In this document: one piece after another, positions 10,163-26,536 of the stretch
Position numbering within the stretch: position 1 is the first letter of the stretch
Layout: every line of letters begins with the position of its first letter
The notes under the pieces: model-generated
Database searches by the model: none
The model's input: only the letters and a program-made list of their open reading frames with translations
Told to the model about the DNA's origin: nothing
Source: Thiothrix sp.
GTDB taxonomy: Bacteria; Pseudomonadota; Gammaproteobacteria; Thiotrichales; Thiotrichaceae
Assembly (NCBI RefSeq): GCF_028714775.1
Contig: NZ_JAQTLS010000002.1
Coordinates: 1-64,000, forward strand
DNA: 64,000 nucleotides
Reading direction: 5' to 3'
Program-made: the position numbers and the translations under genes

Positions 10163-10873
10163 TTATCCCCAGTTTCTGTGGATAACTGTGTGGATTGTTT
10201 GCGGAAGAAACGGTAACAAGGCTTGTTTTACAAAGGCTTATCCTAAGTGCACAATAAACAAACAATATTGTTTTTCAATTGAATCAATAGGTTATCTTAA
10301 TTTTGGTGCTTTTTGGCAGTGTGGTTGCGGTGCTGCGTAGCATCTGGTAATAAAACACAAATTGTGGATAAGTGGTGTGGAAAATGCCTTTCCCCATCTA
10401 GATGTTGTGTCGGTGTCTGATACTTGCCCTACTACCCGTAGATTTTTGTTGGATAGAACACATTTATCGTAAAGCTGCCGATCATTCCCGCTTTTCCCCC
10501 AGCCCCGTAAACCCCGCTGACAGATAATCTTGGCTGATGATCCTGTAACTATTTTGTAATCATGCAGTTACTGACTTATGCACAAACTCTGTGGATAAAA
10601 GTGTGCGCAACTGTGTGGAAGGTGCTGCACAGTACCCCACAAACAAGGGCTTAGCCCAGATTGTGCAAATATTAATCTCATTAATTATCCATTGCCAATC
10701 ATGCAGTTACAAAACTCAAGCAGTTTTTTTCAGGGTCAGGCTATTCCTTGACGCAACTGCGTTCCTACATCTAGGGGCATGTGCATAACATTCCTAGCCG
10801 TCAGCAAATGCTTGACACAAGATGTAGTGTGGTTGGGGGTATTTCACACTATGGGCATATTTCTTGTGGATAA
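10163..10873. other. Candidate replication origin: DnaA-box cluster in a long non-coding region
   Basis: About 900 bases separate prkB and rimO, which point away from each other. Six exact matches to the DnaA box TTATNCACA lie here: plus strand at 10576-10584, and minus strand at 10177-10185, 10363-10371, 10590-10598, 10780-10788 and 10865-10873. A near match (TTATCCCCA) is at 10163-10171. AT-rich stretches, notably about 10255-10305, could serve as the unwinding element. No convincing gene was found in this interval. The last box overlaps the leader of rimO. An origin is the simplest reading; a DnaA-titrating site is the alternative. No dnaA or dnaN is in the window. Confidence 0.55.
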
Positions 10874-12329: not shown

Positions 12330-14018
12330 ATGAAACTCCCCTACGGTGAAAGCAATTTCAAAAAGGTGATAACCCAAGGTTACACCTACATCGACAAGAC
12401 GGATTACATCGCCAAGCTGGAAGCAGCAGGCAGCTACCAGATGTTGCTGCGCCCGCGCCGTTTCGGGAAAAGCCTGTTCCTATCGACGCTGTGGCACTAT
12501 TACGACGTGCAGCACCGTGATGACTTTGATGCGCTGTTTGGCAACTTGCACATTGGGCAGCACCCGACCCCGCTCAAAAACAGCTACCCCGTGCTGTTCA
12601 TGGAATTCAGCGGGATTGCCACCGATTCCCCTGAAAGTATTTACCATTCGTTCAGCCACAAGGTCGGGCTGGCCTTGCAGCGCACCTTGGAAAAATATGC
12701 CTACCCACCCGCAGCCATCACCAGCATCAGCCAAGTGTCCGCCCCTCATGAGAAAATGGAAACATTCTTTAACATTGTGGACGGGCAAAAAATCCTGCTG
12801 CTGATCGACGAATACGACCACTTCGCTAATGCCATCCTCCCGCACGACCTCAAGCTGTTCCAAAGTGTGGTCGGCAAAGGTGGCTTTGTACGCAGCTTCT
12901 ATGAAACCATTAAGACTGCGACCCTGACGGGTACGGTAGACCGTTTCTTCATCACCGGGGTCACGCCGCTAATGCTCGACAGCATGACCAGCGGCTTCAA
13001 CATCAGCGAAAACATTTCCCTGCACGAAGATTTCAACAGCGTGATGGGTTTCACCCCAAGCGAGGTGGAAATGTTGTTACAACCGCTGGTGAAGTCTTGC
13101 CAGCTTGATGGCGATGTTCTGATGGCGGATGTGCGGCGCTGGTACAACGGCTACCGTTTCAACGCACGGGCGGCAGAAACCATGTACAACCCCAATATGG
13201 TGCTGTATTTCCTGAAGAATTTCCGTATAGGGGATTGCAGTTACCCCAAGCGGATGCTGGATGAAAATATCGCCTCGGATTACGGCAAGATCATGGGGCT
13301 GTTCGGCATCGGCGACCGTGACAACAATTTTGCGGTCTTGGATGAAATCATCAACACCGGCGAAGTGACCGCCACGCAACGCCGCAAATTCGACTTCGAC
13401 AAAGGTTTTGACCGTGACGACTTTATCAGTCTGTTAGCCTACATGGGCTTTGTCTCATTGCAGGGCGATACCTTGTCCGGCGAAGTGTTCGGCATCCCCA
13501 ACCACGCCATCCAAGAACTGTACTTCCAGTATTTTAAGGTCGAGTTGGAGCGCCGCAACGAGGTCAGCATCCCCGACCGTGCCTTGTTGCAAGCGGTGGA
13601 AGCCTTGGCTCTGCATGATGACATCCAGCCCTTGGCAACCGAAATGCAACGGGTGCTGCCATTGCTGTCGAACCGCGATTTCATGAAGATGGACGAAAAG
13701 CACATCAAAACCTTGGTGTTGACGCTGCTGTACCAATCCCCGGTGTACTTCATCCAAAGCGAGCGGGAAATGCACCATAAATACCCCGACATTCTGCTGA
13801 TGGAGCGCAGCCCCTATGCGGTCAAACACCAACACCTGATCGAACTGAAATACGCCAAGAAAGGCGAGGGGGAAAAGGCTTGGGAAGCCAAACGGCAAGA
13901 AGGCATCGGGCAGGTGCAAGGCTATTTGCAGCTACCGGAAATTGCCGTACTGCCCAAGCTCAGTGCGTGGGTGCTGATAGCGGATGGGGAGCGGGTTGAG
14001 GTCGTGAAAATACAGTAG
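12330..14018 (+). CDS. AAA-ATPase-like protein with C-terminal PD-(D/E)XK nuclease domain (DUF1703 type)
   Basis: The 562-residue protein opens with MKLPYGESNFKKVITQGYTY and a P-loop-like RPRRFGKSLFLS (about 44-55). A Walker B-like LLLIDEYDH (about 154-162) follows. The C-terminus carries PDILLME ... LIELKYAK (about 489-512), the D and E-x-K of the PD-(D/E)XK nuclease fold. Members occur in many copies in bacteria and Bacteroidetes-like genomes and are suspected mobile or defence genes, but their role is unproven. It borders the phosphorothioation island and is convergent with it. The gene is complete. Confidence 0.85.
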   Translation: MKLPYGESNFKKVITQGYTYIDKTDYIAKLEAAGSYQMLLRPRRFGKSLFLSTLWHYYDVQHRDDFDALFGNLHIGQHPTPLKNSYPVLFMEFSGIATDSPESIYHSFSHKVGLALQRTLEKYAYPPAAITSISQVSAPHEKMETFFNIVDGQKILLLIDEYDHFANAILPHDLKLFQSVVGKGGFVRSFYETIKTATLTGTVDRFFITGVTPLMLDSMTSGFNISENISLHEDFNSVMGFTPSEVEMLLQPLVKSCQLDGDVLMADVRRWYNGYRFNARAAETMYNPNMVLYFLKNFRIGDCSYPKRMLDENIASDYGKIMGLFGIGDRDNNFAVLDEIINTGEVTATQRRKFDFDKGFDRDDFISLLAYMGFVSLQGDTLSGEVFGIPNHAIQELYFQYFKVELERRNEVSIPDRALLQAVEALALHDDIQPLATEMQRVLPLLSNRDFMKMDEKHIKTLVLTLLYQSPVYFIQSEREMHHKYPDILLMERSPYAVKHQHLIELKYAKKGEGEKAWEAKRQEGIGQVQGYLQLPEIAVLPKLSAWVLIADGERVEVVKIQ

Positions 14019-14046: not shown

Positions 14047-16632
14047 TTAGCGCGATGGTATTAATAGGAATGTACTTATTGGGATTACCTTCGGCACTAA
14101 CCGCCCACTTTTTCCCGGCAACATCAAGACAATTGCCCCGCTGTGTTCTTCGCCGTAGCTGACGTGTAGCGGTTTGTCGTTGCCGTAGAAATACAGGCGG
14201 TCGAACGGGGTGTTTTGCACAATCCATTGCGCCACTTCCAGCATGTTCTCATCCGGCACAATAAAGTCACAAGCTGCACCTTTGCGTTCACAAATCAGGT
14301 TGCCACGGGAATTGAGTTCGTGGGCAGCGTGTTGGTCGCGTTTGGGGTCAATTCTGCCGTTTATGTGTTTGGCTAATTCAGGTGAACAAAAGCCGTAAGT
14401 AAGTTCGATACCACCGAAGTAATCCATTACCGGGTCAACGACTTGCAGGGCAAGTGCGGCTAAAGCGTTATAGGTTTCGGTTTGCTTCGGCAGGTTAGGT
14501 AAGCCTGTTTTGGCTTGGGTTTCACCGCATTCGATGAAGTCACGGAAGGTGTGATATTGACCGCAAGGGGCATCCAACGTTGGTGTGTGGTGTGAGGTTT
14601 GCAGCTCAAATCCCACCACTTCTAAGCGCAAGCGTTGCAAGGTCGCATCAAACTGTTCGGGAGGCATTCCATAACCTTCTAAATCAAACTCAGGGTGTGC
14701 TGATAAAGCTTGGTCAAAAGCGACTTGTTCAGCGTAATGTGGATAATCCGACGTGAGGAAACGCGCTTTCAGGTAGAGATAGGTCGGCGCGTAGGTTTCC
14801 CCGTATTTGTAATACTCAAAACGCTGGTTGACGAGGCTGATTTTGATACGCTCCAACAAGCGCGGTAAAGCTAGCCCTTCAAAGTCGTCGTATTTCATCA
14901 GCGACAGCTTGCCGGATTCAGCATGGATTTTCAGTAAATCAGCAGAAGTCACGTCACCAAAGACAAAAGTGGCGCAACTGATGTAAACGCGCAGGATCGG
15001 CGGCAACAACACTACCTGTGAGGTGTGGAAGGTCAGTGAACCTTCAGCATCTAAATAACCGTAACCTTGGTTCGCAGCTTGTTGGCACATCTGGCGAATT
15101 AGCGTTGGGTTGCCTGCGGAAAATAGCAAACGTTCGCCTTCGGTTTGGGCAAGCGGGTAGCTATTGAAAAAGGCTTTCACGTCCCGTTTGAGGCTTTCGG
15201 GTAAATGACGGTAAACGCGCTGCTGATCGAAACGGCGCATGGCAAAATAAACGGTCAGGTCTTCGCGGCGGCTATCGAAGGCAAGTTTCAGGGTGTCATT
15301 GCCGTGGAAACGTTGCAAGAAGTTCAAGCCGCGTTGCCATGTGCCGAATAGCTCTTTTACAGCGGCAATTTGTGAAAACTCATCTTCTTGAGGTGGGCGA
15401 CCGAGTTCAAGCCAACACAACCATAAGGCATCTAGCAAGTCGGCGTGTTGCTGGTAAAACGCCTGTTCTTTTTCTGTTTTGGTCGGGCGTGCCGCTTTCG
15501 GCGCTTTGGGGGCTTTTGGAATTTGGCTGATCAGGCGATTAGCCGTACTGCGGTTGCGGTAACGGCGTTCCAGAAATGCCTGTTCTGCGTCTTTGTCTTT
15601 GAACACGAAAAACACGCCGGGGCCGACGGCTACCGGGTCTTCGTCGAGGACGCGGCGCAGGTATTCGCGGAATTCTTCCTGTGAGTAATAGCGCTGGAAG
15701 GTGTTACGGCTGGTGAGTACGCCATCGCGGAACAAACGCCCGCGTTCAGTGGATTGTTCGCCCAACATGACCGCAGCGCACAGGAATTGGGTGCAAAGTT
15801 GGTATGCGCCTAACACGGCTTCCATGCGTTCGGTTTTGTCTTCGATCACGTTGATGACGAAACCGAGGTTGACAATATCAGCGGTGTGTTTGGGGTTGTC
15901 GGGGCAGAAATGCGGATCCCAACCGTTGGCGATGAGGTTGTTTTGCCGCAGGATGTCTACGTCGCTACCTTTGCCACAGCCGTAGTCGAAAATCGTGTGT
16001 TGGCCTTCCAGAAAGTCATGCTTGGCGAGGAGTTGCATGGGTTTGGAGAGGGCGTAGCGGGTTAGCGCGGTGCGGTGGCGTTCGACGGTTTTGGAAGTTT
16101 TTTCTATGACTTCGGGCGGCGCTATTTCACTTCCATCAAGCCTAACTAGCTGGTGATCAACGACTTTGTAGCCTGCATTGCGGAGGCGTTCTTCCCATTG
16201 TTTTTTATAGCCGATTTTGCGGGAGTCTTTAAAAAGTCCGGCATCTTCGAGTTGCTTGGTAAGCGCGGCGAATTTGGGAATGTCGGGGTGATCGGGGGGG
16301 AGAAGGAGTTCTTTGCGGTGGAGGATGGGGGGGTTGTTATTATAATTGCACAAAGAGTTATTGAAATTATTCAAGTTTAACTTGATAGATTTTTTAAGTT
16401 CTGGAAAATGGTTCTTTTCAAAATCATCATATTCTAGCAAAGAAAAATATTCATCAATCAAGCTGACTTTAATGACATTAGGGTTCACTCCCTTTATATT
16501 TGCAACAAAAGAAAAAAACTTTATTTTATCTTTTAAAGACGAGAAGTTAATGAGATTTATATGGAAATAAACCTCATTATTAACTCGTTTTCCTTGGATT
16601 GATCTTAAAGCATTCAGATCAAAAATATTCAT
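14047..16632 (-). CDS. DNA phosphorothioation-associated putative methyltransferase
   Basis: The 861-residue protein matches the methyltransferase family found beside dnd/ssp phosphorothioation genes. A Rossmann methyltransferase motif I, FDYGCGKGSDVD, lies at about 215-226, with GWDPHFCP as the acidic loop. The N-terminal about 110 residues end in PPILHRKELLLP, a family hallmark. A word like LLEYDDFEKNHFPEL (about 65-79) recurs weakly as LMKYDDFEGLALPRL further on. Its biochemical target is not established. It is the last gene of the ssp operon, six bases after sspE. The 5' third-kilobase is clearly more AT-rich than the rest, suggesting a recombination junction near 16.33 kb. Confidence 0.85.
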   Translation of the reverse strand: MNIFDLNALRSIQGKRVNNEVYFHINLINFSSLKDKIKFFSFVANIKGVNPNVIKVSLIDEYFSLLEYDDFEKNHFPELKKSIKLNLNNFNNSLCNYNNNPPILHRKELLLPPDHPDIPKFAALTKQLEDAGLFKDSRKIGYKKQWEERLRNAGYKVVDHQLVRLDGSEIAPPEVIEKTSKTVERHRTALTRYALSKPMQLLAKHDFLEGQHTIFDYGCGKGSDVDILRQNNLIANGWDPHFCPDNPKHTADIVNLGFVINVIEDKTERMEAVLGAYQLCTQFLCAAVMLGEQSTERGRLFRDGVLTSRNTFQRYYSQEEFREYLRRVLDEDPVAVGPGVFFVFKDKDAEQAFLERRYRNRSTANRLISQIPKAPKAPKAARPTKTEKEQAFYQQHADLLDALWLCWLELGRPPQEDEFSQIAAVKELFGTWQRGLNFLQRFHGNDTLKLAFDSRREDLTVYFAMRRFDQQRVYRHLPESLKRDVKAFFNSYPLAQTEGERLLFSAGNPTLIRQMCQQAANQGYGYLDAEGSLTFHTSQVVLLPPILRVYISCATFVFGDVTSADLLKIHAESGKLSLMKYDDFEGLALPRLLERIKISLVNQRFEYYKYGETYAPTYLYLKARFLTSDYPHYAEQVAFDQALSAHPEFDLEGYGMPPEQFDATLQRLRLEVVGFELQTSHHTPTLDAPCGQYHTFRDFIECGETQAKTGLPNLPKQTETYNALAALALQVVDPVMDYFGGIELTYGFCSPELAKHINGRIDPKRDQHAAHELNSRGNLICERKGAACDFIVPDENMLEVAQWIVQNTPFDRLYFYGNDKPLHVSYGEEHSGAIVLMLPGKSGRLVPKVIPISTFLLIPSR

Positions 16633-16638
16633 TGCAAA

Positions 16639-18957
16639 TCAAACTTCAATATCTAACCAAGGAGCAATGCGTTGCCATGCTAAATCAGCAATTCTAACTG
16701 TTCTACTTTCGATGATTTCTTTTGTCCAATCACCATCAACATTAGCAACTGATTTCACCATCGGCAAATGACTTGAGTTTTCTAGTAGTTTTTCTGTTAA
16801 TCCTGAAATGTTAACTCCATCTAACTTGGCTTTAGCAAGCAATTGATTTAGATCATCTAACGTATCCGCAGACAATACCTTATAGAATAATTTCTTTTTC
16901 TGCCAAGAACCATTTCCTAAAGATGAGTTTTCTGAAGGTGGGAGCAAGGTTAAATTACCTAGTTTATTTATAGTATCAGGGTCTTCATAAATACTATCTA
17001 ACCAACCCTCATTTTTTGTTTGTGGAGCAATATGCTCAACTGTTTGCGAAGATTCGTCATCCCATGTTCTTAAATTAAACAATGGAAGAACACCTTGTTT
17101 TCCTATTATAGTTAATCCTGGATTTTCCTTGTCCACTACATTATCATGTGCTGATGCCAATAATAAAAATCTTGCAACTATTCCTTTTGTAGAATAAATG
17201 GGAATCCGTAATATTTTCTTTATCCATTCTTCTTTGCAAATTATTCCACCATTTTCTTTCAATTTATCAACTAAAGCTTTTTTTAGCAAATGAGATTTAG
17301 GTAAATCACAACTATTTCTACATCTTGCAAGTGGTTTTAGTATCACTCCATTATTGGTATTTTCATATCCAGAATACATTAACTCTCGATAAATTGAATC
17401 GATTCCTTCCGTGGTTTTTCTGGAGGAACGCCATAAAATAGAAAATGCTGTTACGGCTTTTGTTACAGAAATAAATTCACTAATGGCCTCATTTCTGCAT
17501 TCTGAAGTTGAACTTAAAACTTCAGAATAATACCTGGCCAATATTCCTATGGTAATAGTGTGGTTTAATTTTTTAAGAAAGTCTACACAAAGAGATGTTT
17601 TGTCATCGCTAATCGGAGAAAGATCAGGTTTTTCTTTTTTATCACCAGTCCAAACTTTTTTCATAAAAATAGCACTATGAGATAAATGCCGAAGAAAGTT
17701 TCTTCTCTCGTTGCTATCAATACAGTCGATTTCTTCATAAGAGTCTTTTAGAAATCGACGTTGCTCACTTAGTCTTTTTGATAGCCCTTTGCCTCTTTCT
17801 GCCAGCTCAAAAGAAATTATGAGGCGACTTGTTGCATCTTGCTTATCTTTTGATTCAGAGAAGCTTTCAAGGTAATTTTCAATTTGTTCTATATAATTAT
17901 ATGATGGAGTGTTTTTATATTCTGATAATTTTTCAGAATATACAACTCTTGGTTTAAAAGTTTCAAATGCCGTGAGTGGCTCACCCGTTGTATTTAAAGA
18001 TTCAAACATATCAAATGCGTAATCTTCATTTTTTGCTGTTACTATGGTAATAGCAATTCTATCTAACACAAAATTAGCAAAAAATACTATTCTTAAAAGC
18101 TCTTCATATGATTTATCACTTTCAGACTCTAATATTTTCTGAGCGGCTTCTGGGATTTCCGCATTAAGAAGAGTATTTTGAAAGTTAGTTGACTTTATAA
18201 TAGATTCAAATTTTGGAATTTCTAGTTTTTCATCACTTTTGGTATTTTTTGCTATTATCTTAATAATTTTCTGAATAGATAATCGAGCATTTTTTAACAA
18301 ATCATACTTAACTTGTTCAGCACTTGCAATCGGTGCTAAATACTTGAATCTGTTGTTGTTATTGTTGCGGGAATAATTGCCATATTCATGAAGATAATAG
18401 CCAACTGGAGAAATATAAGAAGCTGTTTTTTGTCTTCTTGACCAAGAATCAACATAAGCTCGGATCATTCTAGGGTAAAATTTAAATAAATCATCTCCAA
18501 GATTTGTGTCTTCCTCGAAAGTTTTCCCTAATCGAGTAACAACTTTTATACATTCCTCATAAAGCCAATACTGAGCATCATCTTCTTTATTTAGTTTATT
18601 AGCGGCTAGTTTTATTTCTTCATGCAACACAGTGTTAATAAGCAAAATAGTCGACAAACGTTGTTGACCATCAATTATAGTCATAACTTTTGCGGGAACT
18701 TCACCTTTAACTGCTGGCTCAACAGTTGATAGACCTGTATCATGAATAGCAATTATTGTTCCAATAAATGTTATTGCATCAGCACGCTCAACTAACATAG
18801 AAAAGCCATGACAAGCATCTTCCATCAATCGAGATATTTTGTTTTTATCCCAAGAATAATGTCTTTGATATGCGGGAATATACAGTCCTAATCCAGGCTC
18901 GCATAAATATTCCCATACGCTCTTTGGTTGAGCACTGAATACATCTTTAATATCCAC
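16639..18957 (-). CDS. sspE: SspE-like phosphorothioation-sensing restriction protein (DUF262 + DUF1524)
   Basis: The 772-residue protein has an N-terminal DUF262 domain with IPAYQRHYSW (about 27-36) and the nucleotide-binding DGQQR (96-100). A C-terminal DUF1524 HNH-type nuclease has TVEHIAPQ and NKLGNLTLLPPSENSSLGN. In the Ssp defence system SspE senses phosphorothioate-modified DNA and nicks invading DNA. Its placement straight after sspD supports this over a GmrSD-type modified-base enzyme, which shares the same two domains. It is markedly AT-rich with poly-Asn/Lys codon use, pointing to separate acquisition from its neighbours. Confidence 0.8.
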   Translation of the reverse strand: MDIKDVFSAQPKSVWEYLCEPGLGLYIPAYQRHYSWDKNKISRLMEDACHGFSMLVERADAITFIGTIIAIHDTGLSTVEPAVKGEVPAKVMTIIDGQQRLSTILLINTVLHEEIKLAANKLNKEDDAQYWLYEECIKVVTRLGKTFEEDTNLGDDLFKFYPRMIRAYVDSWSRRQKTASYISPVGYYLHEYGNYSRNNNNNRFKYLAPIASAEQVKYDLLKNARLSIQKIIKIIAKNTKSDEKLEIPKFESIIKSTNFQNTLLNAEIPEAAQKILESESDKSYEELLRIVFFANFVLDRIAITIVTAKNEDYAFDMFESLNTTGEPLTAFETFKPRVVYSEKLSEYKNTPSYNYIEQIENYLESFSESKDKQDATSRLIISFELAERGKGLSKRLSEQRRFLKDSYEEIDCIDSNERRNFLRHLSHSAIFMKKVWTGDKKEKPDLSPISDDKTSLCVDFLKKLNHTITIGILARYYSEVLSSTSECRNEAISEFISVTKAVTAFSILWRSSRKTTEGIDSIYRELMYSGYENTNNGVILKPLARCRNSCDLPKSHLLKKALVDKLKENGGIICKEEWIKKILRIPIYSTKGIVARFLLLASAHDNVVDKENPGLTIIGKQGVLPLFNLRTWDDESSQTVEHIAPQTKNEGWLDSIYEDPDTINKLGNLTLLPPSENSSLGNGSWQKKKLFYKVLSADTLDDLNQLLAKAKLDGVNISGLTEKLLENSSHLPMVKSVANVDGDWTKEIIESRTVRIADLAWQRIAPWLDIEV

Positions 18958-18976
18958 TATTACTATTCCTGTGAAA

Positions 18977-19804
18977 TTATAAACTACAAATCATACAAGC
19001 CTGATCTTCGGGATCATCATCTTCTTGATCTCTCAAAGCATCTTGCCATTTTATTGTGTGAACACTCTTAGCATTACGATTTGAAGTGCGTGCTCCTTCT
19101 GTTTTTTCAGCATGGGCAACTACTTCTTCAAGCGTCTTACCTTGTACCCATGTATAACCTTGTCCTGATTCCTTTTCGATGCGAACAGCCTCGGCAAATA
19201 AGTCAGGATGTTCGCGCTTTAACCCTAACCATTCATCTTGACGTTGAAAGAAGCAGAAGTAGCAACCTGAACGACTACGCCACCGATAATATTCTGGAAT
19301 ACCAACAGTATTTTCCAAAATTCGGAAAATATCTGATCGAATCAATCCATCTTCCATAAAAGGAAAAACTGCTTGAATATTTTCTTTCTGGCTAATATAA
19401 CCTTCTCTATTTTCATCTGCACGAATACCGATATAGGTAACAACCGGATCATTACCAACGAACTTCTCAAAGGGTTTGATCTTCATCATTGATGTACACC
19501 AACGCTGTCGAGGCGATGGCAGATAGTTGTTGTGTATTTTTAACCAATGTTCAAAATCTCGCTCAGGACTCAGTTTTTTAATTTCTTTGCCTAAGTAAGC
19601 TTCTAATTTGTCGAGAAAATCATAAACTTCCTGAAGTTCAGCACCCGTGTCAGTAAAGAAATATTCAACCCGGTTATGAATATCTGGGTAGTGATCTCGG
19701 AGATATATGGCGAGAGCAGCACTATCCTTACCGCCGGATAATCCGAGGACATGGCGTGAATCTTCAAGTTCTGAAGCTTCTTGTAGCGTCAAATGCTTAG
19801 TCAT
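18977..19804 (-). CDS. sspD: SspD/DndC-like PAPS-reductase-family sulfurtransferase
   Basis: The 275-residue protein carries the PP-loop ATP pyrophosphatase motif GLSGGKDSAAL (21-31) of PAPS reductases. Cys residues suited to an iron-sulfur cluster are in RWCTSMMK, CYFCFFQ (about 180-186) and the C-terminal CMIC. In phosphorothioation systems this protein activates the DNA phosphate and delivers sulfur. It starts inside the end of sspC (8-base overlap) and is followed 19 bases later by sspE. DndC is the alternative name; the neighbours (DUF4007 protein, large ATPase, DUF262 protein) make it the Ssp version. Confidence 0.85.
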   Translation of the reverse strand: MTKHLTLQEASELEDSRHVLGLSGGKDSAALAIYLRDHYPDIHNRVEYFFTDTGAELQEVYDFLDKLEAYLGKEIKKLSPERDFEHWLKIHNNYLPSPRQRWCTSMMKIKPFEKFVGNDPVVTYIGIRADENREGYISQKENIQAVFPFMEDGLIRSDIFRILENTVGIPEYYRWRSRSGCYFCFFQRQDEWLGLKREHPDLFAEAVRIEKESGQGYTWVQGKTLEEVVAHAEKTEGARTSNRNAKSVHTIKWQDALRDQEDDDPEDQACMICSL

Positions 19805-22800
19805 GTTTAATCTTACTCAATTGCTTGGATGCAACTACTTTGGGGTGTTGAGTTGTCTGATAATCACGCAAGAAATCATCCACTAATTCAGCTAGTACTG
19901 CAAGTTGCAATTCTTTATCCGCCCCAGATAATTGATCATTTAATCGACTTTTTAGCTCATCTGCGGCTTCTCGCTGCATTTTACTTATCGCAACAGGCTG
20001 TTGACGCTCTTTTTCACCTTTTTTTATTGATTTCAATAAGATGACATCAAATTCATCTTGGGTATTTTGCCTTTTTTGATCATGAATGCGTAAAGCCTCA
20101 AGATCAAGCATACGTCGAGAATATTCACTCAATCGCATATCTGCTTGTGCTTTATCGCCATCAAGCCATTTTTCCGGTGATTTCTTGCCAAGAAACATAA
20201 GGATGCTGATAAACCAATCGTGATCAACTTTATCCGAATTGGTCAGTCGGTTGATGAATGCTTTCAATCCGTCGGTATCTACCGTATATGTATCAAGTCC
20301 CACATAACGCCCTGTAATGCGTCGCATCTCAGGAATCGTAGCATTAGCTTTCAGGCGTAAAGCTTGTGCTAAGAGCTTTTGTTGATCATCTAACATCTTA
20401 GAGTAAGCATGTTTCAATGCACTTAGTGTGTCCTTGAGCCTTTCAACATAACCATCGAATTTGGTTTGTTCGGTTGCTCTTATATCGAAACCTAGTGCTT
20501 GGGGTATTCCCTCAAACAGTAATTGTTCGGGTGATTTAGATAAGTGGAATGCATTGCGGAATGCTTTGGCGTGTTCAGGTAAGTCACTAGTCTTTTGTGT
20601 GTATTCATTTAAACCTCCCACAAATGTAGCTAGTGGTTTGATAGCTTGAACTACCGTCCGAGTCTTACCATCGGTGAATAATGCGGTCATGTATTCTTTG
20701 AAGATGGTGGCGCGGATACCTTCAATTCTAAACAGTTGTACCTTGAACAGTTCCGGTGTTTTCACAAAACGCTCTAAGACATCTTTACTGAGTGTCGGGA
20801 GGTACTGACCATCTTCGTATAAAGCTAATTCATCTTGATGTACAAAGTAAGCCGCCAAATACAATACAGGCAACACACCATTTTTTAGACCAAACGGTGT
20901 CGAAGTTAAGATGCCATCCAGATCACTGAAAGGTCGAGCTTTCTGCTCAGTTGAATTCAGAAATTCCTCAATCTCTGCCCAAGTTGCTTGTATAGAATGA
21001 CCGCTGGTAGGTGCAAAAAATCCCCATTTACCTGTGTCATCCTGCCGATGAATGCTGGACTCACGCAATAACGCAAGATACATAGCTTTCTCAGGCGGAA
21101 ATTTTTCAATTCCTAAAGCTTCTTCATCTGGATGCAAAAGCATCATTTCAAGCAGTTTGTTACGCCCTGCGGCTGCTTGGCTAGATGGTTTGTCGCGGTT
21201 GATCAGTTCATTTTTGATCGTTGGGATTCTGCAATATAAGCTACCTAATATGTCAGATAGTTTGTTTTGAAACGCCCGTTTACCATCAATCTGAACAGGT
21301 TTACCTTGCCAATACCATTGGCTACGTTGAGGCTGCTCTAACAGCAGGTGAACTTGAGTTTCTTCCGCCTGTAGTGCCGATTGGTAGTAATCTCGGAACT
21401 CCCGCTGTGCGACCGGATCAGAATGCAGTTCTTGGGATTTGTTTTGCACGGCTTCTAATGCCAATACATCTGCAACTACATCACGTAGCGTTGCTGCATG
21501 AGGATATTTCACTAATACATCAAGCGGAGATGCATTAGAAACCACTTGCTTGATGAAGGTTTCATCGTCCTGCTGATCTTCAGCGAGATAGAAAACAATA
21601 CGTGGAACACCTGCACTTTCGCCAAGTTGACTTACTGAACTAGCATCAATAAAAGCCGTCGTGAAATAGTGCATTGCTCCTTTTTGAATGGAGAATTTAC
21701 GTGCAACAATCGGCATTCCACCATGTTGCTTACTGAGACGTTCTGCAAGGCTGAATACACCTAATTTGCCGCGTTCTTCCTGCAAACGAAGTTCCAAGTC
21801 AAAGTCACTACCTTGCCATACACGATACTCGTTGTTGTACTTGCGCAATTGTAGAACCGCACGCTTCTGCAAAACTTCCAATGCACTTGTGATAGCATCA
21901 GGGTCATGCAAACAATAATTTAGGATTTCCTTAGATGCTTTTAAACCTGCTTGTGCTCCGATGAGATTCAACAAACCTACGGTTTTCAGAACTTTTACAG
22001 CATCAGGATTGTCATCACCCAAACGCTCTAATGCAGTGACAACTTCTGTCCAACGGCGATGTGTAAGATGGTCAACAACAGCCGCAGGTTGGTTGCTGAT
22101 AAAGTAATCGTAAATTTCCCAAGGGTAAATCCAATCACCAAGATGTTCTAAACGCTTGAGACTATCCTGAAACCCAAACGCTTCCGTGCTTCCCAAATAG
22201 TTAAATAAGGTGCGTTCATTTTGAGCCACTTTTTGGCAAAGTAGTGGTAACAACAATGCGCTGATAGGGTGTAACGGATAGCATTGTTGGAACAATTGAC
22301 TCGCAGAATGCTTATCTAGTGTATTTGGTAAAGCCAGCCACTTGCTTAATAAAGCAGACAATTGTTCTGTTTCTTTTGTAATTGTTTTTGGCAGTTTTTT
22401 AGGTTGTTCAACTGCTTTACTGACAATCCGTAAAGTTTGCTCAGCAGATTCTAGGAAAGGGATAACTTCAAAACGTCCTTGAACTTTTGCCCATTCATTA
22501 CGTTGAACCCGACCTAATCCACGCGCATATTGTTCAAACGATTGATGCAGCAACACGAACACTGACAGAATTGCACCGCGCTCATCCTCACAGCCTGTGT
22601 ATGCCTGCTCTGCTAATGCTTGTAACAGGTAAATGTCGTTCGCTTCAGGATGGCGAGCTTCATACTCTAGGAACTTACCTAGCTCATCAATCACAATCAA
22701 AACACCGTAGCCTCCTGCACTAGCTACTGCTTCTTGTAACTGGTTGATCGTATCAATCGTTTCCGTAACAGTGATGTGATCTTGTGCAGATAATTGAGCT

Positions 22801-23273
22801 AATTGTTCAAGTACTAGCGGATACTGCCGTTCTTCACGAGAGAAGAAAGCCGTAGCTCCCTCATGTAATGATTTAGCAAGTCGTTTACTTAGTGGCTCAG
22901 GGCTGCCGGTCAAGAAAACCCTGCAATGCTCTAATGATTTCCCGTTTTCATCCCAAAATTGGTCAATAACCATCTCATTGCAACGTGCTAGGACTGCTTG
23001 AGCCGCATCTGTGGCTACATCATCTGCTGCGCCTAATAAGTGGGAAAGAAATACGGCAAAAGATGATTTTCCCGAACCATATGGCCCCATTAGTGTCCAT
23101 GCGCGGGGCATACTTCTGACTGCTGTAATGGTTTCGCCAACACGCGCCAACGTATCCAATGCACGAGTGGTTGGAATATAGGCATTAACAACAGCTAGTG
23201 AGTCGGCATCGCGCTCAAGATTAATTGAACGGGTGTAGTTTGTATTGACTTGTATTTGTCCGGCCAAGCTCAT
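19797..23273 (-). CDS. sspC: SspC-like large ATPase of the phosphorothioation system
   Basis: The 1158-residue protein has a P-loop GPYGSGKSSF (63-72) and a Walker B segment VLIVIDELGKF (near 193-203), typical of P-loop ATPases that load or remodel DNA complexes. The rest is long and has no other motif I can name. In Ssp systems SspC is the ATPase required with SspB and SspD to insert the sulfur. It overlaps sspB by 4 bases and sspD by 8, so these three are tightly coupled. The identification rests mainly on gene order, size and the P-loop. Confidence 0.75.
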   Translation of the reverse strand: MSLAGQIQVNTNYTRSINLERDADSLAVVNAYIPTTRALDTLARVGETITAVRSMPRAWTLMGPYGSGKSSFAVFLSHLLGAADDVATDAAQAVLARCNEMVIDQFWDENGKSLEHCRVFLTGSPEPLSKRLAKSLHEGATAFFSREERQYPLVLEQLAQLSAQDHITVTETIDTINQLQEAVASAGGYGVLIVIDELGKFLEYEARHPEANDIYLLQALAEQAYTGCEDERGAILSVFVLLHQSFEQYARGLGRVQRNEWAKVQGRFEVIPFLESAEQTLRIVSKAVEQPKKLPKTITKETEQLSALLSKWLALPNTLDKHSASQLFQQCYPLHPISALLLPLLCQKVAQNERTLFNYLGSTEAFGFQDSLKRLEHLGDWIYPWEIYDYFISNQPAAVVDHLTHRRWTEVVTALERLGDDNPDAVKVLKTVGLLNLIGAQAGLKASKEILNYCLHDPDAITSALEVLQKRAVLQLRKYNNEYRVWQGSDFDLELRLQEERGKLGVFSLAERLSKQHGGMPIVARKFSIQKGAMHYFTTAFIDASSVSQLGESAGVPRIVFYLAEDQQDDETFIKQVVSNASPLDVLVKYPHAATLRDVVADVLALEAVQNKSQELHSDPVAQREFRDYYQSALQAEETQVHLLLEQPQRSQWYWQGKPVQIDGKRAFQNKLSDILGSLYCRIPTIKNELINRDKPSSQAAAGRNKLLEMMLLHPDEEALGIEKFPPEKAMYLALLRESSIHRQDDTGKWGFFAPTSGHSIQATWAEIEEFLNSTEQKARPFSDLDGILTSTPFGLKNGVLPVLYLAAYFVHQDELALYEDGQYLPTLSKDVLERFVKTPELFKVQLFRIEGIRATIFKEYMTALFTDGKTRTVVQAIKPLATFVGGLNEYTQKTSDLPEHAKAFRNAFHLSKSPEQLLFEGIPQALGFDIRATEQTKFDGYVERLKDTLSALKHAYSKMLDDQQKLLAQALRLKANATIPEMRRITGRYVGLDTYTVDTDGLKAFINRLTNSDKVDHDWFISILMFLGKKSPEKWLDGDKAQADMRLSEYSRRMLDLEALRIHDQKRQNTQDEFDVILLKSIKKGEKERQQPVAISKMQREAADELKSRLNDQLSGADKELQLAVLAELVDDFLRDYQTTQHPKVVASKQLSKIKHD

Positions 23274-24202
23274 GCTGCTGCCTCAAGAAAATTCGATTGT
23301 TCGTAGTAACTGCGTAAGTAGCTCATAGGCTCAAGTTGGACATCGCTTGTTCTGAAAAGCACCCTGACTCCTGCTGTTTCCTGAAACCTGAATGGGGTAT
23401 CTTTTCTCTGCTCTAGTTTTTCTAACTTGTAGAGAAAAGCACTTTCAGTCAGACAGAAAACTGCTCCCGGTGCTGGATAGTCATTTTTGCCATACATCAA
23501 ATCTTCGATAGCCAACGCCTTTTCTCCTGTTGCATTGAACAGCGATGCAACTGCATAAGCAAGGACCTCGATAGGCAAGTGACCATGATCGCCCACCTGT
23601 ACCTTGTATGTTTTGTTGTCAGGCAATAATGATAAGAGTTTGATGGACGCAAACGGTGTATCTAAAAACTCGTCTGAAAACTGTTTGGCTTTCGGGCGAG
23701 CATCCGAATACATACGCAAAGCCACAGCGACATCATTTTTAAGCGTATTTTTAGATGGTTTTGTATGACTGTTCTGTCTTACAAAATCTATCAAAGAATC
23801 AATGGCTTGTTCCGATGTGAATTCTGGTTTGTGATAACGGTTGTACATCCAATAGGCACAAGTTGCCTGCTCAGGATTGCTTGCCATGTGCCAATGTAAT
23901 AACCAAATTGTAGCTTCATCCTCAAGATAAGGATCGACACCTTCGTTTTCGTCAAAGATGAAATCACCTAGTTTTGTCGGTTGGTAGCCTGTTTCTGTTT
24001 TTTCGATGATTTGGGTAGCTTGCACCCAATAACGAATAGCATTGACCATATTTTTGCCAACGCCAAGTCTAACAGTCGCGTCATCTGCATCAAATACTGA
24101 CGGGTCAACCACAACCTCTTGGTAGGCTTTGGTTAGCCAACTGTAACGCAAGGGAAATGTTTCATGCCTACCAAAAGACATTCTTTTAGGATTGAATTTC
24201 AT
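23270..24202 (-). CDS. sspB: SspB-like DUF4007 DNA-nicking protein
   Basis: The 310-residue protein begins MKFNPKRMSFGRHETFPLRY, the usual opening of DUF4007 proteins, followed by LGVGKNMVNAIRYWV and DEATIWLLHWHMA. In the characterised single-strand phosphorothioation system the DUF4007 protein SspB nicks DNA so that sulfur can be inserted. Its ATG overlaps the stop of the small upstream gene (ATGA) and its stop overlaps the sspC start. No cysteine desulfurase gene (sspA) precedes it, which is where one is usually found. Confidence 0.85.
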   Translation of the reverse strand: MKFNPKRMSFGRHETFPLRYSWLTKAYQEVVVDPSVFDADDATVRLGVGKNMVNAIRYWVQATQIIEKTETGYQPTKLGDFIFDENEGVDPYLEDEATIWLLHWHMASNPEQATCAYWMYNRYHKPEFTSEQAIDSLIDFVRQNSHTKPSKNTLKNDVAVALRMYSDARPKAKQFSDEFLDTPFASIKLLSLLPDNKTYKVQVGDHGHLPIEVLAYAVASLFNATGEKALAIEDLMYGKNDYPAPGAVFCLTESAFLYKLEKLEQRKDTPFRFQETAGVRVLFRTSDVQLEPMSYLRSYYEQSNFLEAAA

Positions 24203-24414
24203 GCAATCACTCGCTTCTTAGTTGTGTTTTCTTCGTGATGCACCGATGTGGCAAGGGATAGTGAAAGTTGTTGTTTGCCTTTGAGGAAAGATTCAACATT
24301 CTCCAAAAACCAGCTTTTCAAACTGACATTATTCATCATAAGCTGTTCATATAGTTCTTGTTTTGTTTCGGGGTTTATTTCAATGACAATCCTGCCACTC
24401 ACGCCTCTTGCCAT
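24199..24414 (-). CDS. Ribbon-helix-helix-like small protein at the head of the ssp operon
   Basis: The protein is about 71 residues. The segment GRIVIEINPETKQELYEQL followed by SLKSWFLENVESFL has the beta-strand plus two-helix pattern of ribbon-helix-helix DNA-binding proteins. I chose the ATG at 24414 with GGAG 9 bases upstream; ATGs at 24429 and 24450 are in frame, the last lying inside the palindromes described next. It is co-transcribed with sspB (ATGA overlap). A role as repressor of the operon is inferred from its fold and position. It could instead be a DNA-binding subunit of the modification machinery. Confidence 0.6.
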   Translation of the reverse strand: MARGVSGRIVIEINPETKQELYEQLMMNNVSLKSWFLENVESFLKGKQQLSLSLATSVHHEENTTKKRVIA

Positions 24415-24437
24415 ACCATTTTGCTCCATTGGCACTA

Positions 24438-24469
24438 TGTTACATAACATGTTAAGTGTAACATTACAC
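24438..24469. promoter_or_regulatory. Palindromic operator candidate in the divergent ssp / sulfur-binding-gene promoter region
   Basis: Between the two divergent genes lie three nested dyads. A perfect 10-base palindrome TAACATGTTA is at 24445-24454. An outer pair TGTTACA/TGTAACA is at 24438-24444 and 24457-24463. A further inverted repeat GTGTAA-CA-TTACAC is at 24456-24469. Such tandem dyads fit dimeric repressors of the ribbon-helix-helix type. They sit where both transcripts must start, so one regulator could control both modification genes and the reader gene. Confidence 0.5.
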
Positions 24470-24534: not shown

Positions 24535-25038
24535 ATGATTCCTCAAAGACTTCTTCAGCATTTTTTCGACTTGAACGTATGGTATTCCGATGGGCGACGT
24601 AGACCCCAGAAACCATTGCTGTTGTTGCTGGCTCTAGCACGGGTTCAAGCTGGAAAGCCCCGTATGATTGCCTTTGATGAAATTGAGGAGAAACTCGAAC
24701 AGGTCATTGAGGACTTTTCCCCCAGTCGCCAACCTCATCCAGAATACCCATTTTGGCACTTACGCTCAGAAAAAATTTGGGAAGTCCCACAAAGCCACAC
24801 CATCCCTACAACATCATCTGGCGATGCAGACAGAAAATACCTCCGCGATCACAAGATACAAGGTGGTTTTAGCCAAGAAGCGTTTGCCTTGCTCTCATCC
24901 CATTCCGACCTGCTGGAACGAGCGGCGATGATCTTGCTGGACGACAATTTCCCCTCATCCATTCACCAAGACGTGTTGGATGGTGTCGGGCTGGAAATAG
25001 ACGTGACATCAAGCATCATTCAATACAAGCACGGCTAA
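24535..25038 (+). CDS. Stand-alone sulfur-binding-domain (ScoMcrA-type) protein
   Basis: The protein of about 167 residues matches the sulfur-binding domain that recognises phosphorothioated DNA in ScoMcrA-type restriction enzymes. Visible are RRRPQKPLLLLLALAR (about 21-36), then HPEYPFWHL and IWEV, and a C-terminal FPSSIHQDVLDGVGLEID. Full enzymes continue into an HNH nuclease; this frame stops right after the domain, and 12 bases later the abiEii gene ends on the other strand. I chose the ATG at 24535 (8 bases after AAGG). The ATG at 24472 would add 21 residues but lacks a ribosome binding site. It may be a sensor or a truncated restriction gene. Confidence 0.75.
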   Translation: MIPQRLLQHFFDLNVWYSDGRRRPQKPLLLLLALARVQAGKPRMIAFDEIEEKLEQVIEDFSPSRQPHPEYPFWHLRSEKIWEVPQSHTIPTTSSGDADRKYLRDHKIQGGFSQEAFALLSSHSDLLERAAMILLDDNFPSSIHQDVLDGVGLEIDVTSSIIQYKHG

Positions 25039-25049
25039 TCCCAATTGCC

Positions 25050-25901
25050 TCATGCGCCACCTGCGTTTAAAGCAGCAAGCCGATTAGCCAGTTGCAGAAA
25101 GTAGTCTGTTGACCAGATGTTGAGTACTTTGGCATCAGGTATGAATTTCACAACATCCTGCTTGGCGCTGTCAAAATCTACTGCCATGATGCGCTGGTGT
25201 AACCGTACTTGTAGTTCAGTTTCTGACACAACTTCTTGGCGAATAGCACCGCTTTCATAAGCTCGTCTGGCGAAATGCGCCAGATTGGGTGAGACGTTAT
25301 GGCGTATATACCACTCAAAATCGAACCAATCACGCCCCTTCACCCGATTTTTCCATTGACGGAATAGCAGTGCGTGTAACTTTCCGGCAAAAAGATCGGG
25401 CAGGGAAAAGCACTTGACGTAAAAAGAAAACGGTTGGAGTAGCAGCTTTTCTTCCGTAGCGAAACCCAGCGGTGGCAAGGTATCCACCTCAAACTTGATT
25501 TTGACCTTGCGGGCGCTGCTAATGTTCAGGCTGAACACTTGGGTGTTGTTCTTCAAAAAGGCTGATTCTATCTGGCTGTCCGTGGTCTTTTGTTTGGTCG
25601 TAATCTCTACATCCAAACCCAATGCCTTAAATTCAGCGATCACCGCTTTGAAGTACGGTTGCAAAGAAAATTCAGCATCCGGTTGCAACAGTGAAAAATC
25701 CAAGTCTTCAGAGAAGCGTGGCAAACCATGAAAAATCCGCAGGCAAGTGCCACCGTAAAAAGCGGCTTGCTCAAAAAAGCCTGCGCGGTTGAGACCTGCC
25801 AATGCTACTTCCTGCATGACTTCGCGAAGTGCTTGATCGTGTTGCTCGACATTGACCAATGGATAGCGGTTCAACATCTGTTCCAGCAAATTCACTGCCA
25901 T
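25050..25901 (-). CDS. abiEii: AbiEii-type nucleotidyltransferase toxin
   Basis: The 283-residue protein has the AbiEii/AbiGii nucleotidyltransferase core: FYGGTCLRIFHGLPRFSEDLDFSL at about 48-71, written here in parts as FYGGTCLRIFHG and RFSEDLDF. A Lys-containing segment FAGKLHALLFR and KGRDWFDF follow. AbiE toxins modify tRNAs with nucleotides and stop growth during phage infection (type IV toxin-antitoxin). It overlaps the antitoxin gene by 10 bases, the classic arrangement. It is placed tail-to-tail with the sulfur-binding-domain gene, whose HNH part may have been lost when this module arrived. Confidence 0.9.
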   Translation of the reverse strand: MAVNLLEQMLNRYPLVNVEQHDQALREVMQEVALAGLNRAGFFEQAAFYGGTCLRIFHGLPRFSEDLDFSLLQPDAEFSLQPYFKAVIAEFKALGLDVEITTKQKTTDSQIESAFLKNNTQVFSLNISSARKVKIKFEVDTLPPLGFATEEKLLLQPFSFYVKCFSLPDLFAGKLHALLFRQWKNRVKGRDWFDFEWYIRHNVSPNLAHFARRAYESGAIRQEVVSETELQVRLHQRIMAVDFDSAKQDVVKFIPDAKVLNIWSTDYFLQLANRLAALNAGGA

Positions 25902-26536
25902 TGTTTGATAGCCTCGTACAAATTGCCCAGCAATGCGGTTTTATGCCCTGATTGCCGATAGGCTGCGATGATTTCCAAGTTAATCATGCCTGATTCATCA
26001 GCATCAAAGCGCAGGTCATCCAGCAAGAAATATTGCATGGATTTGACAGAATGCACCCGTAAGTTGCGGCTCAGTACCAGTCTGTCACACAAAGCCTTGG
26101 CAGGTGCGGCAAGTAAGCAATAACCACCGCCTTCCACCGCCACTGATTCTAGGCCGATAGGGTACAGCCCGTCTGGCAGGTGTTGGTAGGAAAAGCGCCC
26201 CACATCCGTTTCGAGCGTTTGGCTTCGCCGCGTTGTCACTGAGGTGACTTCCAGCACCTTTTCGGGGATTAGTCCGTGATGCCATAAGGCGTAGTCCAGT
26301 GATACACAGGAAGGCCCATACAGCAGGTTGGCGACCAGCAGGCGCACAATTGGTTTCCCCGTCAATTCAGGTGAAACCACATACATACCGCGTTTCACGG
26401 GTAGTAGGACGCCTTCCTCCAGCCAGCGGGAAATCTTGTTATTGGGGGTTTTGTAGCCGTTGAGTACTGACAACAACGTTTGATGCATAACAGGAATGTT
26501 GCCAAAAGACTTAAGCTGTAACTCGGCATTTCGCAT
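25892..26536 (-). CDS. abiEi: AbiEi-type antitoxin
   Basis: The 214-residue protein has an N-terminal winged-helix segment (about 15-55, with NNKISRWLEEGVLLPVKRGMY) followed by the AbiEi domain with YGPSCVSLDYALWHHGLIPE and VTSVTTRRSQ. It should counteract AbiEii and repress its own promoter. The gene precedes abiEii with a 10-base overlap. A strong palindrome 29 bases upstream of the ATG is the likely operator. Confidence 0.9.
   Translation of the reverse strand: MRNAELQLKSFGNIPVMHQTLLSVLNGYKTPNNKISRWLEEGVLLPVKRGMYVVSPELTGKPIVRLLVANLLYGPSCVSLDYALWHHGLIPEKVLEVTSVTTRRSQTLETDVGRFSYQHLPDGLYPIGLESVAVEGGGYCLLAAPAKALCDRLVLSRNLRVHSVKSMQYFLLDDLRFDADESGMINLEIIAAYRQSGHKTALLGNLYEAIKQWQ

Follow-up and report, generated by a model that had tools for sequence, protein, structure and literature searches.

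Does an Ssp operon that lacks sspA still encode a phosphorothioation (PT) system, and what sets such a locus apart? The question was raised by a locus of Thiothrix sp. (GCF_028714775.1, contig NZ_JAQTLS010000002.1), which we analyzed within positions 1–64,000 of the contig; this whole stretch of 64,000 nucleotides is referred to as the window. An initial annotation had placed an Ssp gene order at 14047–24429, with sspA absent, all junctions overlapping or shorter than 20 bases, and a PT-associated methyltransferase at the end. Matches to PADLOC, Pfam, and TIGR04096 profiles confirmed the gene order and positions, on the minus strand. Six packed genes occupy 14047–24414 on the minus strand, and their junctions measure, in order, −4, −4, −8, +19, and +6 bp; sspA was found neither in the operon nor nearby. 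The six genes, together with a divergent gene encoding a stand-alone sulfur-binding domain (SBD), are as follows:

24199–24414, minus strand: first operon gene, encoding a small ribbon-helix-helix (RHH)-like putative regulator of 71 aa (open reading frame with a conserved Met-Ala-Arg-Gly start)
23270–24202, minus strand: sspB, DUF4007 protein (PF13182, E = 1.9e-81; PADLOC SspB, 295 bits; PDB 6juf, E = 5.4e-32)
19797–23273, minus strand: sspC, P-loop ATPase (PADLOC SspC, 1549 bits; Walker A and Walker B-like motifs)
18977–19804, minus strand: sspD, PP-loop, PAPS-reductase-like sulfurtransferase (PADLOC SspD, 357.7 bits; PF01507; SGGKDS at residue 23)
16639–18957, minus strand: sspE, PT-stimulated GTPase (DUF262) and HNH-type nickase (DUF1524) (PADLOC SspE, 1039.7 bits; both Pfam domains)
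14047–16632, minus strand: PT-associated putative methyltransferase of 861 aa (TIGR04096, 567.9 bits; curated cut-off, 150)
24535–25038, plus strand: stand-alone SBD protein of 167 aa, divergent from the operon and without the HNH half (NF045808 match)

All four Ssp proteins matched Ssp profiles. SspC carries the Walker A motif GPYGSGKSS at residue 63 and the Walker B-like motif LIVIDE at residue 192. SspE was matched closely by the E. coli-type SspE structure (20yv, E = 5.7e-287), and its Y30 and R100 are the conserved counterparts of EcSspE Y63 (the PT-pocket tyrosine) and R133 (the GTPase arginine). With every Ssp protein matching its own profile far above any rival, the predicted identity of the locus as an SspBCD–SspE PT system is strongly supported, for a class whose criteria include PT at CCA-type genomic sites and phage restriction and in which an adjacent sspA is canonical, not obligatory. 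That the operon is instead a type 4 BREX system or a Dnd relative deserves practically no credence: SspC does score against BrxC (NF033441, 53.9 bits) and SspD weakly against DndC (TIGR03183, 26.4 bits), but these values, far under the cut-offs of 400 and 290.4 bits, refute such a class, the Ssp profiles gave scores in the hundreds of bits, SspE closely resembles its E. coli counterpart, and the BREX type 4 markers PglZ and BrxL are not among the operon's genes.

The missing sspA is an ordinary and already known feature, and we rejected it as a novelty. sspBCD is a typical three-gene operon and IscS is able to replace SspA (PMC8092258); the same layout is known in E. coli 3234/A, where sspBCDE lacks sspA and host IscS is the sulfur source (PMC13251355). 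The window SspE belongs to the same subtype as that of 3234/A (957 bits), with the key tyrosine and arginine kept. Unlike 3234/A, the Thiothrix locus adds the RHH-like gene before sspB, the divergent SBD-only gene, and the terminal TIGR04096 methyltransferase, and no similar sspC DNA was found in 5,426 E. coli genomes. Vibrio cyclitrophicus FF75 SspABCD–SspE shares the writer and effector families, but it has its own sspA, the loss of which abolished PT despite the presence of iscS (PMC7188994).

The initial annotation had reasoned that sulfur must come from a housekeeping desulfurase. Searching the genome revealed IscS (TIGR02006, 726 bits; cut-off, 643) and NifS, both encoded elsewhere, and no desulfurase in the genome scored above the DndA cut-off. 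The candidate donors thus exist, but such replacement is not a given: because iscS failed to replace sspA in V. cyclitrophicus FF75, use of IscS here is something that we infer. The accompanying argument from richness in sulfane sulfur found no support.

The same annotation had the RHH-like gene taking the place of sspA. It does stand first in the operon, but it is no substitute for sspA; rather, it heads an sspA-less Ssp lineage. Two Ssp lineages were distinguished in the family: one led by SspA with an SspFGH-like set (G305 and G379), and one RHH-led and sspA-less, found in at least three genera. In G305 and G379, the SspA-led set includes an SBD-fused SspF, an SspG-like protein, and a DndH/SspH-like protein, and a member of the same methyltransferase family comes after them. 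The writer of SspABCD–SspFGH systems (PMC8092258) is the same as that in the window, but the window has SspE, no SspA, and an SBD as a separate protein. SspF-like proteins with a fused N-terminal SBD were located at 618–3035 of L062 and 15760–18174 of L063.

The RHH-like gene probably starts at 24414, as judged from the Met-Ala-Arg-Gly start, which is conserved in Thiothrix eikelboomii. Its product shows 54–83% identity among Thiothrix relatives and returned no family match in profile searches. The structural model was poor (pLDDT 54.7), with a strand-like N-terminus followed by two helices; the RHH assignment is therefore plausible but unproven. Two operator-like sites lie upstream of this gene:

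24438–24449: operator-like 12-mer TGTTATGTAACA
24457–24468: operator-like 12-mer TGTAATGTTACA

They are spaced 19 bp start to start. When up to one mismatch was allowed, the 12-mer matched twice in 64 kb, both times exactly, against 0.92 matches expected. TGTAATGTTACA is invariant in six Thiothrix loci, including that of T. eikelboomii, despite divergence of the flanking sequence there; in another genus (G389), a pair of similar sites lies ahead of the RHH gene. The conserved pair fits autoregulation by the putative RHH protein. The open-access literature searched gave no report of Ssp regulation by an RHH protein.

While the Ssp system itself is ordinary, the modular exchange locus in which it lies is the notable part. 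DNA homology with the relatives G377, G375, G369, and G383 ends at 18977–18987 and restarts inside the methyltransferase gene at 16336–16345, the latter scored where that part of the methyltransferase was aligned. Outside these limits, homology spans sspBCD, plus the SBD gene where it is present. Two features were delimited at this place:

16340–18987, minus strand: exchanged cassette, reaching from the sspD end to roughly methyltransferase codon 100 (sspE and the methyltransferase N-part), defined by homology breakpoints
16327–16333, minus strand: C7 homopolymer at the cassette/methyltransferase junction

Between the same flanks, the window and T. eikelboomii carry sspE alone. In G377, G369, and G383, this interval contains a divergent sspE (SspE') and genes for an SF2 helicase, a HATPase (MzaB-like) protein, and a 218-aa protein; in Thiothrix fructosivorans (G375, locus L073), it encodes PbeA and PbeC, each followed by a further protein (of 72 and 151 aa, respectively). 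Three further Thiothrix genomes have Dnd genes in front of the same methyltransferase, with DndC in two of the three. The methyltransferase N-part, encoded by its first ~100 codons, follows the cassette, with 83% identity within and 27% between cassette types (permutation p = 0.00045, from nine non-independent genomes); the remainder (C-part) retains 80–96% DNA identity throughout, across cassette types. The methyltransferase gene is accordingly a mosaic, its GC content rising from about 0.25 over the initial 300 bp to about 0.5 thereafter. In the relative G369, the junction homopolymer is C6 and the methyltransferase is frameshifted; slippage (phase variation) and assembly error are both possible sources of this difference.

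Could fast evolution under vertical descent, without any exchange, account for the restriction genes and the N-terminus of the methyltransferase? The N-part does vary more than any other region of the family: outside Thiothrix, it shows 35% mean pairwise identity, compared with 54–56% for the neighboring region and the core. However, this explanation is very improbable, because gene content differs wholly between the same anchors, GC jumps at the cassette boundary, and relationships change within the locus. G369 is G375-like up to sspD and G377-like from sspD on, so that it changes partner within sspD. Between the window and G369, dS is 2.2 for sspC, 0.68 for sspD, and 0.75 for the methyltransferase C-part, an about three-fold difference between sspC and sspD for one genome pair. 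Moreover, the N-parts of G369 and G377 are identical despite an sspC dS of 2.0 between the two.

The anchors themselves carry a further signal. Identity in the methyltransferase anchor is 0.90–0.94 in the first ~0.7 kb after the junction versus about 0.78 beyond; at the other end, comparisons between lineages gave mostly 0.79–0.90 in and around sspD versus 0.69–0.76 in most of sspBC. Such homogenized anchors are the trace expected if homologous recombination had passed repeatedly through sspD and the methyltransferase gene, and they support this process. Sequence comparison, covering about nine non-independent genomes from a single genus, thus shows that the restriction genes between the constant anchors, sspBCD and the methyltransferase, have been exchanged among Thiothrix by recombination, a finding that is new. 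Since the N-part is merely more variable outside Thiothrix, sharp exchange is shown for this one genus. The Pbe genes of T. fructosivorans connect the locus to a known system (PbeABCD/CxC ABC-ATPase), described earlier with Dnd or CxC–DndE systems (PMC10853773): PbeA and PbeC are joined here to the shared anchors, sspBCD and the methyltransferase, but Pbe is absent from the window itself.

Given exchange of the cassettes, the N-part might be functionally matched to its effectors as a specificity or docking element instead of hitchhiking with them. Across nine genomes, its co-segregation with the four cassette types is complete, and the swapped segment lies within R1, a domain of the methyltransferase that is duplicated as R2. 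On the other hand, physical linkage predicts the same pattern, and the catalytic core looks like those of enzymes that methylate small molecules or tRNA, and not like that of a DNA base methyltransferase. We therefore consider functional matching rather unlikely; the association of N-part and cassette may be plain linkage.

The methyltransferase comprises R1 (residues 12–165), a class I core (~181–346), a helical part, R2 (~528–680), and an M15-peptidase-like C-terminal domain (~684–850). R1 was recognized as a second match to positions 323–477 of the TIGR04096 model, and R2 is a copy of the same domain. Because R1 is standard in long TIGR04096 members, an annotation artefact or gene fusion was rejected as the origin of the N-terminal extension. 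In the AF2 model (pLDDT 87.4), the SAM core lay nearest in fold to methyltransferases of the small-molecule, tRNA, and similar types (best Z 14.1, rmsd 2.7, 147 aligned). The SAM domain lacks the [DNS]PP[YFW] motif of DNA amino-methyltransferases (N6A/N4C), the only resembling sequence being an NPPI at residue 100, which is not part of the core; a DNA base methyltransferase is supported neither by motif nor by fold. In the C-terminal domain (14050–14595, minus strand), H768, D789, and H823 are invariant, possible counterparts of the H, D, and H that act as Zn ligands in M15 peptidases. The domain bears a weak resemblance to Peptidase_M15_3, with a best E of 0.002 (5 of 25 members) and 0.27 for the window protein, below the cut-off. 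PDB profile searches with R1 and the C-terminal domain gave nothing useful. By tblastn, the C-terminal domain alone was matched in Aeromonas caviae and Geminocystis records.

The methyltransferase family recurs with Ssp as well as with Dnd. In neighborhoods of METHYLTRANSFERASE (TIGR04096) from 80 named genomes, Ssp writer genes occurred in roughly 20 and DndB/DndC in roughly 16, by our reading of neighborhoods seeded at E ≤ 1e-6, with many contigs truncated. This uncharacterized methyltransferase therefore stands beside Ssp, not Dnd alone.

On the other side of the operon, the SBD protein matched NF045808 with 135.4 bits over model positions 3–156 of 284, below the cut-off of 180, and also matched the PDB SBDs 7cc9 and 5zmo. 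Its gene starts at the second methionine, as fixed by in-frame stops just upstream in relatives, and the SBD-only proteins of three species end at nearly the same residue. It thus shares its sulfur-binding domain with the SBD-HNH PT-dependent restriction endonucleases (ScoMcrA, SprMcrA; NF045808), including the K/Y/P pocket residues, but it has no HNH nuclease half and adjoins a PT writer. At the positions of ScoMcrA H116, R117, Y164, and P165, the window protein has Q, K, Y, and P, and the G377 protein has H at the equivalent of 116; in the ScoMcrA sulfur-pocket comparison, most homologues have lysine at 117 (PMC6224610). Over 160 codons, dN/dS of the SBD gene was 0.09–0.12, similar to that of sspB, which disfavors random truncation. 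An intact PT pocket, the absence of the HNH half, and purifying selection together point to a probable reader of PT DNA that makes no cut. The gene is dispensable, because no match was found beside the RHH gene in G383 and none near the T. eikelboomii operon, and the G375 copy is frameshifted. No report of stand-alone SBD proteins was found in the open-access literature searched, and PHROGs yielded no matches for the RHH-like, SBD, and methyltransferase proteins.

The SBD-only gene might alternatively be decaying and without function, left over from a PT-cutting SBD-HNH nuclease that turned lethal once the PT writer arrived. Full-length SBD-HNH genes do occur in four genus members without PT sulfurtransferase (G370, G371, G374, and G382), in two cases at a comparable site, and the frameshift in T. 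fructosivorans is in keeping with decay. The low dN/dS, the intact pocket, and the near-identical end point in three species do not fit a dying gene. Nor was incompatibility between SBD-HNH and the PT writer significant in 16 genomes of the genus (Fisher p = 0.28 for full-length and 0.08 for SBD-only genes), so that avoidance of full-length SBD-HNH by PT-writer genomes is suggestive only, and G379 carries a full-length SBD-HNH together with SspA-led Ssp. The remnant explanation is consequently a doubtful one, and the reader role remains our preferred interpretation.

Two relatives without a PT sulfurtransferase have related arrangements. At 10502–14932 of L175 (G371), an intact SBD-HNH gene is divergent from a truncated methyltransferase gene with no PT writer between them, and this looks like an emptied exchange locus. 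In G370 (L174/L179), an intact SBD-HNH gene lies beside a Dnd-type remnant without DndC, and the methyltransferase is broken.

We are fairly confident that the window holds an sspA-less, RHH-led SspBCD–SspE defense system within an exchange locus, working along the following lines. Sulfur would pass from IscS or NifS to SspD, and SspB, SspC, and SspD would write single-strand PT marks on host DNA. By analogy with close homologues, the GTPase domain of SspE would sense PT and its HNH domain would nick unmarked phage DNA. The RHH protein would bind the paired operators and control the divergent promoters, and the SBD protein, with its pocket in place, may read PT DNA without cutting. Across Thiothrix species, as sequence comparison shows, homologous recombination inside the two conserved anchors replaces the restriction genes that lie between sspD and methyltransferase codon ~100. 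As effector cassettes are swapped between the anchors, the same PT writer would therefore be coupled to different effectors.

About 84% of sspBCD loci have neither SspE nor SspFGH, and further restriction partners have been asked about (PMC8092258). The same anchors with three effector sets in one genus name candidate partners, namely PbeA/PbeC and the SF2 helicase with the HATPase protein, and the locus also offers a candidate nuclease-less PT reader. More speculatively, the locus may be dedicated to the exchange of PT immunity, with sspBCD and the methyltransferase as anchors, the cassettes (SspE, SspE–helicase–HATPase, Pbe) or a Dnd module swapped between them, the N-part matched to the cassette, and the SBD protein a PT reader; we hold this broader interpretation only tentatively.

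The locus is bordered on both sides by other genes. An AAA-ATPase-like and PDDEXK_9 protein is encoded at 12330–14018 on the plus strand, convergent with the methyltransferase gene. An AbiEii-type toxin gene and its partner (25050–26536, minus strand) adjoin the SBD gene, and this pair recurs, about 85% identical, inside the SspFGH-type cluster of G379 (L063, 12587–14061).
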